A stretch of DNA of 41,511 bases from Bacillota bacterium. GTDB lineage: Bacteria; Bacillota; Clostridia; Caldicoprobacterales; DTU083. A program made the translations under genes and the position numbers. Within the stretch, counting starts at the first letter, position 1, and the number at the start of each line of letters is the position of its first letter. The notes under the pieces were generated by a model. That model had not been told where the DNA came from and ran no database searches. It worked only from the letters and a program-made list of their open reading frames with translations. Positions 31,340-34,798 of this stretch are shown piece by piece. The stretch spans positions 1 through 41,511 of the forward strand of contig JAKORJ010000153.1 of the NCBI GenBank assembly GCA_029777885.1. The letters are read 5' to 3'.

Positions 31340-32632
<1,293 letters not shown>

Positions 32633-32700
32633 TGCCGGTATATGTCAGGGGCAAAGGTCTAACCTGATGATCTCGGATAATAACAATGAAAGGTGATATG

Positions 32701-32991
32701 ATGCTGACAAGCAAGCAAAGAAGTTATTTGCGCAGTATTGCAAATAGCCATGATTCCATATTTCAGATAGGGAAGGGCGGCATAACCCCTGCCTTTGTCA
32801 GGCAGGTAGATGAAGCCCTTGAAGCCAGGGAGCTTGTGAAGATCCATGTGCTGGAAAGCGCCGGGCTCACTGCCCGTGAGGCATGCGATGAGCTGATTGC
32901 AAAGACCGGGGCCGACGGCGTACAGGTCATAGGCAACAGGTTCGTCATATACAGAAAATCCAGGGAAAACCCGAGGATAACCCTTCCTTAG
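32701..32991 (+). CDS. YhbY family RNA-binding protein
   Basis: A CRM-domain protein that binds pre-50S rRNA. The family's MLTSKQRSYLRSIANSH start, the GKGGITPAFV loop and the C-terminal GNRFVIYRKSRENP are visible in about 96 aa. ATG 32701 has AAAGGTGAT about 4-7 bases upstream; ATG 32686 and 32698 are in frame but overlap that site. It follows obg, as in many Firmicutes. Its last bases overlap those of the opposite-strand gene by 4. Confidence 0.93.
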   Translation: MLTSKQRSYLRSIANSHDSIFQIGKGGITPAFVRQVDEALEARELVKIHVLESAGLTAREACDELIAKTGADGVQVIGNRFVIYRKSRENPRITLP

Positions 32992-33974
32992 GATCCTTTG
33001 GCGAGGGAGCCTTCTGTCAGCTCAGACAAGGCTTCCGGCGAGCTGCTAGCGTCCCTGGCCTCCTTCAGGCCATACAGCCTGGTAAATAGCGCCATCAGTG
33101 CGAATACGGCAGCAAAGACAAGATAATAAGTCCTGTATGCTCCGACTACAGTGGCTGCCAGCATGAAGAAAAGCGCATACCTGAGATAGCTCATGGCCCT
33201 TTTTGGAGCCAGTATTTCCTTTCTAAGCCTGGAATAATCGCGGCGGCCGGCCTTCATCATCCTATCTATCTGGATATCTATGGCGCTGTCATCAGGGAAC
33301 ATGCCGGCCTGCTCCATCATGTCAAGCAGGTCTTCCCTGCCTAGGAGCCAGAGCTTAAGGTTTTTGACGGAATCTGCATACTTCCTGCAGCCTTCGCTGT
33401 ATTCACCGGAGGTCAGGAATATGGCATCGGAGCAACCTGCCCCTTTCGCCTTCTGTATGAAGGAAGCCAGCATCCGGGAGGACACCTTGTCGTCAAAGCG
33501 GTCATTGTAGTATCCGATGGCGGTCTTTCGGCCATTGAGCCTGGTTTCCCAGAAGCCCGGCCTGGCCTTGATACTGCCTGCTCCCGGTAGGCGGAGCACC
33601 AGCTTCAGGATCTCCCATTTGAATTCTTCAGGCCCAAGCCTGATCAGCCTGTTGTATACATATTCCCTGGCCGCCTGATCCCGTTTTTCCCGGCGCTTTT
33701 GTACAAGCAGCTTTCTTTTGTGAAGCCACCAGGCCAGGTCCAAAAGGAGCGTCAGGAGAGCTGCGAGCAGTAGGGCGGCCCGCTGCTGCCCGGTCCTGTA
33801 CATGAACCAGAGATAAGCGAAAATATATGCTATGAAGTTGAAAAATATAAAATTGAGAACCTTTCCTGCCAGTGACGGGGTAGCGCTGCCATTGAGATAG
33901 AAGCTGTTCAGCCTGTAGCGATCATACAATTCCCGCGTTTTTTTTCTGATCCTGCGTAACAGGTGCTTCATCAT
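32988..33974 (-). CDS. Four-helix membrane protein with degenerate Mrr-like nuclease fold
   Basis: About 328 aa. Two membrane helices lie at about residues 39-59 and 67-84 and two more at 262-280 and 283-301; a basic stretch (KLLVQKRREKRD) follows helix 2. Residues 105-225 follow the Mrr/type IV restriction endonuclease pattern (FKWEILKLVLRLPGAGSIKA, KAKGAGCSDAIFLTSGEYSE), but the expected D and (Q/E)xK catalytic pattern is not clear (FWETRLNGRKTAIGYYNDRF). It looks like a membrane-bound, perhaps inactive, nuclease-fold protein. ATG 33974 has GGGAGG 9 nt upstream. It is transcribed alone. Its function is unknown. Confidence 0.6.
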   Translation of the reverse strand: MMKHLLRRIRKKTRELYDRYRLNSFYLNGSATPSLAGKVLNFIFFNFIAYIFAYLWFMYRTGQQRAALLLAALLTLLLDLAWWLHKRKLLVQKRREKRDQAAREYVYNRLIRLGPEEFKWEILKLVLRLPGAGSIKARPGFWETRLNGRKTAIGYYNDRFDDKVSSRMLASFIQKAKGAGCSDAIFLTSGEYSEGCRKYADSVKNLKLWLLGREDLLDMMEQAGMFPDDSAIDIQIDRMMKAGRRDYSRLRKEILAPKRAMSYLRYALFFMLAATVVGAYRTYYLVFAAVFALMALFTRLYGLKEARDASSSPEALSELTEGSLAKGS

Positions 33975-34089
33975 CAGGATTCGCCTCCCATAAATACATT
34001 GCAGGTAGATTCTTGACATATTTCTTGCATTTTAAACATTTCAGCCTTTATCAGGCGTGCGAAATATATGTACAATATTAAAATATGTG

Positions 34090-34095
34090 TATAAT
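34090..34095 (+). promoter_or_regulatory. Possible promoter -10 for nadD
   Basis: TATAAT in TGTGTATAAT, 31 bases before the start; the -35 is weak and the TG is not at the extended -10 position. Confidence 0.4.
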
Positions 34096-34126
34096 ATATA
34101 TTGACAGCGATACAAGGAGGAAGACG

Positions 34127-34798
34127 ATGGGAAACCGCAGACGGCTGGGCATAATGGGCGGGACCTTTGACCCTGTCCATCTCGGGCACCTTTTGGCTGC
34201 CGAGGCTGCCAGGGAAAGCATGGGGCTTGACCACGTGATTTTCATACCCACCGGGGAACCGCCTCATAAGAGGCAAAGGATCCTGGCTCCCGCAGAAGAC
34301 CGGGTGGCGATGCTTAGGCTGGCAACAGGCAGCAATCAGTATTTTTCAGTGGACACGATCGAAGTAGACCGCCCGGGCGCCACCTATACCGTGGATACGC
34401 TGCTGCAGCTCAGGGAGAGATATACCGACAACCCGGAGCTTTATTTCATAGTAGGCGGGGATACCCTGATGGAATTGAAGTCCTGGAAGAGCTTCGAGCT
34501 GGTTGCCCGGCTGTGCGCCTTCGCGGTGTATCAAAGGCTCGGGGTCGGGTACGGGCAGCTCAAGGAAGAGGCCGAGTATCTGAAGGCAAGGTTTGATGCG
34601 GATATATGCTTTATCCAGGGTCCCATGGCGGATATTTCATCCAGTGAAATACGCAGCAGGGCGGCCAGGGGGAGCAGTATAAAGTACCTGGTGCCCGAAT
34701 CAGTAGAAAGCTACATTACACAAAAGCAACTATACAAGGGAGTAATAATCGATGACAAAAACGGAATGCTTGCGTATTCTCAGCACCCTGATCGATGA
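34127..34798 (+). CDS. nadD: Nicotinate-nucleotide adenylyltransferase
   Basis: NAD biosynthesis enzyme that adenylylates nicotinate mononucleotide. The GIMGGTFDPVHLGHL motif at the N-terminus holds the HxGH-type nucleotidyl-transferase site, and ISSSEIRSRAARG near residue 180 is the second motif. About 223 aa, slightly long at the C-terminus. ATG 34127 has AAGGAGG 6 nt upstream; ATG 34085 lies before the likely start of transcription. It overlaps yqeK by 47 bases, in a different frame. It heads nadD-yqeK-rsfS. Confidence 0.96.
   Translation: MGNRRRLGIMGGTFDPVHLGHLLAAEAARESMGLDHVIFIPTGEPPHKRQRILAPAEDRVAMLRLATGSNQYFSVDTIEVDRPGATYTVDTLLQLRERYTDNPELYFIVGGDTLMELKSWKSFELVARLCAFAVYQRLGVGYGQLKEEAEYLKARFDADICFIQGPMADISSSEIRSRAARGSSIKYLVPESVESYITQKQLYKGVIIDDKNGMLAYSQHPDR

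Follow-up and report, generated by a model that had tools for sequence, protein, structure and literature searches.

Genes encoding an Mrr domain are readily annotated as 'restriction endonuclease' and so are tallied as defence genes. In the window (the whole stretch of DNA analysed here, 41,511 nucleotides from a bacterium of the clostridial order Caldicoprobacterales), a gene of this kind lies among housekeeping genes and encodes a protein whose nuclease-like domain is framed by membrane helices, raising the question of what such a protein does for the cell. An earlier note, made from the sequence letters, had read it as an Mrr-like fold without evident catalytic residues that might sense DNA or serve in defence. 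The conserved, catalytically dead, membrane-embedded version of Mrr described here acts like a core gene in several orders and classes, and a core cell component is more likely than a phage-defence enzyme.

Gene and membrane architecture

The gene is present where the earlier note placed it, as an open reading frame running from 33974 to 32988 on the minus strand and encoding 328 aa. The features of the locus are the following.

32988..33974, minus strand: membrane pseudo-nuclease gene, 328 aa with the stop codon counted; ATG at 33974, stop codon at 32990-32988
33801..33860, minus strand: TM1, about residues 39-58 (hydropathy 39-57; model helix 35-61)
33717..33782, minus strand: TM2, about residues 65-86 (hydropathy 66-84; model helix 64-112)
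33300..33638, minus strand: degenerate Mrr/PD-(D/E)xK domain, residues 113-225 (Pfam Mrr_cat, AlphaFold2 model, AspBHI and AF1548 matches)
33507..33554, minus strand: former active site, residues 141-156, with F141, G154 and Y156 at the D, Q/E and K positions
33066..33206, minus strand: TM3-TM4 hairpin, residues 257-303, the best conserved part (lowest column entropy, dN/dS 0.09)
33975..34126, no strand: divergent intergenic region common to the pseudo-nuclease gene and nadD (consensus scan only)
31358..32632, plus strand: obg, neighbour (Pfam GTP1_OBG; TIGR02729)
32686..32991, plus strand: yhbY, convergent neighbour (Pfam CRS1_YhbY)
34127..34798, plus strand: nadD, divergent neighbour (TIGR00482; Pfam CTP_transf_like; start codon read from the sequence)

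The matches of the neighbouring genes confirm that it stands alone between yhbY, on the ribosome-assembly side, and nadD; the genes after nadD are presumably yqeK and then rsfS, names taken from the usual gene order rather than from a family scan. GGGAGG at 33989-33984 lies nine bases ahead of the ATG-ATG with which the pseudo-nuclease gene starts, and the intergenic region before nadD, which is well conserved in a same-genus genome, holds overlapping promoter-like matches on the minus (34091-34063) and plus (34048-34076) strands in the consensus scan. The 2.05-Mb assembly, which comprises 249 contigs, contains no second copy of the gene. Comparison with the 82%-identical copy of a same-genus genome gives a dN/dS of 0.226 over the full gene; the domain scores 0.17, TM3-TM4 0.09 and the linker of 31 codons ahead of TM3 0, and the comparison genes obg, yhbY and yqeK give 0.06-0.11. 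Since these values show purifying selection, the gene is not a chance or dead reading frame.

Hydropathy peaks at residues 39-57, 66-84, 260-278 and 285-303 give the order of two membrane helices, the Mrr-type domain and two more membrane helices, and together with the AlphaFold2 model they bear out the proposed framing of the domain by two helix pairs. Ten K/R residues in the N-terminal tail and another ten in the 25 residues after TM2 suggest, by the positive-inside rule, a cytoplasmic location for the domain and for both termini. In a simple scan, exactly four hydropathy peaks were found in 28 of 43 members of the family, with three or five in the others. The least variable columns among 29 members are Y26 and Y284, the latter the same in all 31 rows of a wider alignment (A5), and TM3 and TM4 are the segments of lowest mean entropy, so the family signature is carried by the membrane part more than by the former active site. 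Most of the 25 least variable columns hold aromatic, hydrophobic or small residues, the sole mostly acidic column being N41 in TM1 (D in most members of alignment A4).

Fold of the central domain

The AlphaFold2 model of the window protein (mean pLDDT 84.2, 16 sequences) places an alpha-beta domain at residues 115-222 with helix pairs on either side. N-terminal helices span residues 2-28, 35-61 and 64-112, and the domain follows as α115-128, β136-138, β141-146, β149-156, α166-178, β183-188, α194-202, β207-211 and α213-222, before C-terminal helices at 229-254, 257-276 and 278-310. Pfam Mrr_cat (PF04471) matches residues 160-220 with 25.8 bits (cut-off 21); of 29 diverse members, 24 match it at E <= 0.1, the strongest at 4.7e-10. 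With Foldseek, the window model has no match at E <= 0.001, the top matches being AspBHI (1.6e-3) and then the RNA polymerase subunit RPB5 (2.2e-3). When Foldseek's best 1000 chains are ranked by Z, AspBHI leads (Z 13.6, 2.8 A, 128 residues), followed by AF1548 (Z 12.7, 2.1 A, 109 residues) and, third, MspJI (Z 11.9), all three aligning within residues 99-231; RPB5 reaches about 8-9 in two models, below the true REases. A second model, of a Caldicoprobacter oshimai member 25% identical to the window protein, gives AF1548 Z 13.5, AspBHI 13.0 and MspJI 12.4. A sequence-profile search of the sequences of solved structures gave weak matches (best AF1548, E 0.15), and an NCBIfam scan gave sporadic ones, no family being matched by more than 3 of 29 members. 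Pfam also matched Phage_holin_3_6 and several membrane families weakly, which was attributed to the composition of the TM hairpins and set aside. Structure prediction and fold search thus returned the Mrr-like fold expected from the letters and not a different one, and on the models the domain is confirmed as the core alpha-beta REase fold, in the PD-(D/E)xK / Mrr_cat family.

Loss of the active site

The columns of the catalytic residues were fixed by alignment to intact Mrr domains, the reference being intact short TM-Mrr proteins of other Firmicutes such as L168 (GAD…VVQAK). In the window protein, F141, G154 and Y156 occupy the columns of the catalytic D, Q/E and K, so that it reads F141…G154-Y155-Y156 in place of D…(E/Q)xK; the alignment thus upholds the observation that no D...(Q/E)xK is evident. 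An intact site was likewise found in none of the homologues, as none of the 43 aligned members, the window included, has all three residues. By column, D occurs in 8 members, E or Q in 3 and K in 3, and two of the three residues occur together in L051 (D and K) and L155 (D and Q) alone. Of 16 control Mrr rows, 7 show all three residues in register; taken singly, D is so in 7 and E/Q and K in 12 each. A longer loop shifts D out of register in the classical Mrr controls, and two of the controls (L120 2496-3083 and L142 2105-2710) are themselves degenerate partners of intact genes. The domain of the window protein is, by this alignment, a pseudo-nuclease domain without catalytic residues. Since D is kept in 5 of 12 members from other classes against 3 of the remaining 31, a stepwise loss of catalysis is suggested, with D commoner outside the class. 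The 43 members form one clade in the domain tree (support 0.727), and catalysis was likely lost once in the family.

Distribution and inheritance

The gene was found in all 30 genomes examined from the window's order (G000-G029, with G024 at E 4.8e-5 only) and, by the same search, in 1 of 31 genomes from other orders of the class. A single-protein scan of named genomes gave no match, and a profile from a narrower alignment gave 15 loci. Of 391 class genomes, iterated profiles had any match in 52 at first and in 80 after a further round. Of these 80, 43 were assigned to the family, a set that differs from the 43 aligned members, and 15 of the remaining 37 were looked at. Placed outside the family were ten Mrr proteins (L059, L131-L139) in which QxK or ExK was read by eye, along with two short TM-Mrr pairs (L120, L142), and L118, SecF-like by eye, was rejected as a false match. 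L117:2538-3362 (G100), 275 aa long, hydrophobic at its ends and matched at an HMM E of 2e-7, is perhaps a very divergent member and was left uncounted; the 5.5 kb fetched around it hold no obg or nadD match. Two hairpin proteins without an Mrr domain, L119 and L141, were left uncounted as well, the latter (L141:7339-7953, G165) having 205 aa with the same N- and C-terminal hairpins, which suggests that the Mrr domain can be lost. In a sample of the phylum, 69 of 299 genomes had a match, including 12 near-full-length members outside the class.

The family persists in eight f8 genomes of 0.8-1.2 Mb and in six f69/f85 genomes of 1.2-1.8 Mb, where the proteins are mostly 250-280 aa with a worn domain. 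Mrr_cat found no match in L103 and L115, worn proteins taken from f8 and f69, or in L159 of f152, and the role of the domain in f8, f69 and f152 members may differ from that in the window protein. Five of the f8 genomes (G033, G071, G125, G148 and G193, 0.8-1.1 Mb) have two to four Spo0A_C matches each, which is unexpected for genomes as small as these.

Pairwise distances within the order correlate with those of nadD (r 0.81), yqeK (0.89) and obg (0.90; 27 loci each), values reached in none of 2000 permutations. Such tracking of the neighbours' distances is the pattern expected from vertical inheritance, and the family is, on the sequences sampled, an old and vertically inherited one of anaerobic Firmicutes.

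Gene neighbourhood

Across 65 loci, obg or nadD/yqeK/rsfS lies nearby in 53, representing 10 of 18 families. Within the order, the gene is antisense to obg and nadD in all 29 loci fetched, G024 being left out; obg is seen in 28 and nadD in 27 (elsewhere the sequence fetched, or the contig, stops before them), and it stands head-to-head with nadD in every one of the 27 that include it. The same slot is used, again antisense, in f74 (1/1), f85 (1/1) and f69 (5/5); three of the f69 frames (L113, L115, L116) overlap nadD, the open frame having been taken from stop to stop. In f8 the gene lies beside rsfS in 8/8 loci, antisense, with obg seen in 7, and in f25 it lies beside obg in 5/5, co-directional, with nadD seen in 4. 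The four f152 loci, from another class, all have the order rplU-ysxB-rpmA, one gene, obg, one gene, pseudo-nuclease gene, the gene before obg being SPOB_a by Pfam in L159 and alike by eye in the other three.

No linkage to obg or nadD was seen within the fetched stretch in f39, f70 (2), f22, f88, f92, f192, f114 (3) and f182 (2), 12 of 65 loci in which obg or nadD could lie beyond that stretch. An obg match in L121 (31%, E 3e-17) proved to be another GTPase, the obg of G232 lying elsewhere on the contig, and f70 is counted as unlinked for this reason. These loci mean that the neighbourhood need not be functional. In many other Clostridia, obg-(yhbY)-nadD lie only 300-900 bases apart between the matched parts (by eye, among the matches listed), with no pseudo-nuclease gene between them, and no family member was found in eight wider obg-nadD gaps fetched from other Clostridia; the gene is therefore not universally needed. 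The slot between yhbY and nadD itself accepts antisense genes, for in f39 (L123:2213-2683, G064) it holds an unrelated antisense protein of 157 aa, ferritin-like by eye and with no Pfam match at E <= 0.001. A second recurrent neighbourhood is seen in four loci of other classes (L155, L156, L159, L166), near DUF2619 (YqhV-like), DUF441, DUF1657 and an MFS-like transporter; DUF2619 and DUF441 in L159 and DUF1657, DUF1540 and DUF3842 in L155 were identified by Pfam, the rest by eye.

Function and alternative explanations

The reading preferred here, to which we give about an even chance, is that the gene encodes a core, vertically inherited membrane protein whose former Mrr-type nuclease domain is a non-enzymatic binding module. 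With both termini and the domain on the cytoplasmic side, the TM3-TM4 hairpin would dock with itself or with a membrane partner, and the pseudo-nuclease would recruit a cytoplasmic partner to the membrane, either a protein or a nucleic acid that is not cut. This recruitment would assist a housekeeping process, plausibly one of the envelope or the cell cycle. The RNA polymerase subunit RPB5 contains a pseudo-REase domain whose role is structural. A parallel for the proposed task is offered by SmdA of S. aureus, which is described as a membrane-anchored protein with a nuclease-related domain that is without several of that domain's most conserved residues, as essential in transposon studies, as interacting with PBPs by way of its TM segment and with EzrA by way of its cytoplasmic portion, and as having a role in division and the envelope (PMC9040797). 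A bolder form of this idea, which is rather improbable as it stands, makes the family an old Firmicutes membrane protein in which a restriction nuclease turned into an essential non-enzymatic adaptor, connecting the inner membrane with the nucleoid or with the Obg-linked machinery of ribosome assembly and the cell cycle; lineages with small genomes would have kept the protein while its domain became worn.

Defence is the function that kinship to Mrr would suggest, and members of the family do match the PADLOC models PDC-S02 (8/29, best 2e-8) and mREase_IV (3/29, best 1.8e-7), though such matches could stem from the common Mrr domain alone. The window protein itself matches no PADLOC model at E <= 0.1, and tblastn at E <= 0.001 matched it to none of 50,697 phage and 72,556 plasmid records, a search in which remote members would be missed. 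An old, vertical and widespread family near obg or nadD/yqeK/rsfS speaks against a mobile defence gene. The suggestion of the earlier note that the protein senses DNA or serves in defence is not supported, given the order-wide presence (30/30), the distance correlations of 0.81-0.90, the housekeeping neighbourhood of obg/nadD/rsfS in 53 of 65 loci, the retention in very small genomes and the lack of phage and plasmid matches for the window protein, and an anti-phage protein or DNA sensor is the least probable of the explanations weighed here. An active nuclease with migrated catalytic residues is scarcely more credible: residue migration is known in the PD-(D/E)xK superfamily (PMC1913061), and E117 and C196 are moderately conserved, but no acidic/lysine set within the domain was seen among the 25 least variable columns. 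A membrane-bound regulator of the divergent nadD-yqeK-rsfS operon would fit the head-to-head position in all 27 order loci with nadD and the overlapping promoter-like matches in the window, as conserved divergent gene pairs often include a regulator. This explanation is nevertheless very unlikely, because the gene is co-directional in all five f25 loci, faces rsfS instead in f8 and, in f152, has no nadD close by within the sequence fetched, and no DNA-binding motif was seen.

Catalytically dead nuclease folds can retain binding, and the top structural matches of the window model are DNA-cutting REase domains, which favours a membrane tether, a dead nuclease that would still bind DNA or RNA, keeping the nucleoid or transcripts attached to the membrane. 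The structural pseudo-REase RPB5 was also matched, however, second in Foldseek, so the REase fold does not imply free nucleic-acid binding, and the tether seems unlikely, though it is the most probable of the alternatives. A sporulation or germination factor appears less probable again. Spo0A_C was found in all 25 carriers within a 196-genome sample of the class and in 23 of 24 hand-picked carriers (G669 has none), but it occurs in 162 of the 196 class genomes anyway and the carriers are not independent. Relatives from other classes lie near DUF2619, DUF1657, DUF1540, an SPOB_a protein or a spore-germination permease (Spore_permease), the three DUF families being ones that we take to be linked to sporulation, and the fourth gene on in the window encodes a D-Ala-D-Ala carboxypeptidase (Peptidase_S11), presumably dacF-like. 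Spore-type neighbours were not seen beside the gene in the window's class, however, among neighbours inspected by eye and in part scanned.

If the preferred reading of a core envelope or cell-cycle factor is true, the family would clearly exemplify the co-option of a nuclease fold for housekeeping and would allow sharper counting of defence genes. The fixed place of the gene and its retention in genomes of about 1 Mb make it a good target for localisation or depletion work.

Relation to known systems

No paper on a four-TM pseudo-nuclease family was found by title or abstract in the open-access library searched. Within that scope, the arrangement with four TM helices, the absence of catalysis throughout the family and the linkage to obg/nadD are apparently new, the domain itself being a known fold. 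With the Mrr_cat (PF04471) type IV restriction enzymes the window protein has in common the fold and the order of strands and helices, and its sequence match lies above the curated cut-off. It differs from them in having no catalytic D/QxK, in having four membrane helices where soluble Mrr proteins have an N-terminal region, and in being the product of what behaves as a core gene, whereas those enzymes are encoded by mobile defence genes. Mrr of the E. coli type has an N-terminal winged-helix DNA-recognition domain, which is absent from the window protein, whose N-terminus is modelled as a helix and a TM hairpin. The structures of AspBHI, MspJI and AF1548 have the REase-like fold seen in the two family models (Z 11.5-13.6), with no membrane hairpins aligned, and AF1548 has IECK where the window protein has IGYY.

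SmdA resembles the window protein in combining a membrane anchor with a cytoplasmic nuclease-related domain lacking several conserved residues, a likeness drawn as an analogy and not as a claim of homology; SmdA has a single N-terminal TM helix and a NERD domain and is confined to Staphylococcaceae, whereas the window protein has four hydrophobic segments and Mrr_cat (PMC9040797). NERD is not among the Pfam matches of the window protein at E <= 10, a list from which weak matches can be filtered out. Another degenerate REase, the NACHT-associated inactive REase (PF22722), is matched by 9 of 29 members at E <= 0.1 (best 0.00027), the three matches whose scores were examined falling below the cut-off, and no NACHT ATPase domain is among the Pfam matches of the window protein.

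The short TM-anchored Mrr proteins of Firmicutes (L167-L170, L172, L173) have, by eye, a hydrophobic N-terminal stretch followed by an Mrr domain and no second TM hairpin. They are 190-245 aa long, and five of the six keep D...(E/Q)xK in register, giving the cleanest register of the active site. In family f43, such short TM-anchored Mrr proteins occur as tandem pairs (L120:1905-3083 in G169 and L142:2105-3200 in G316), one protein having an intact D...ECK and its neighbour being without catalytic residues, and the tandem is possibly a pair of nuclease and pseudo-nuclease.
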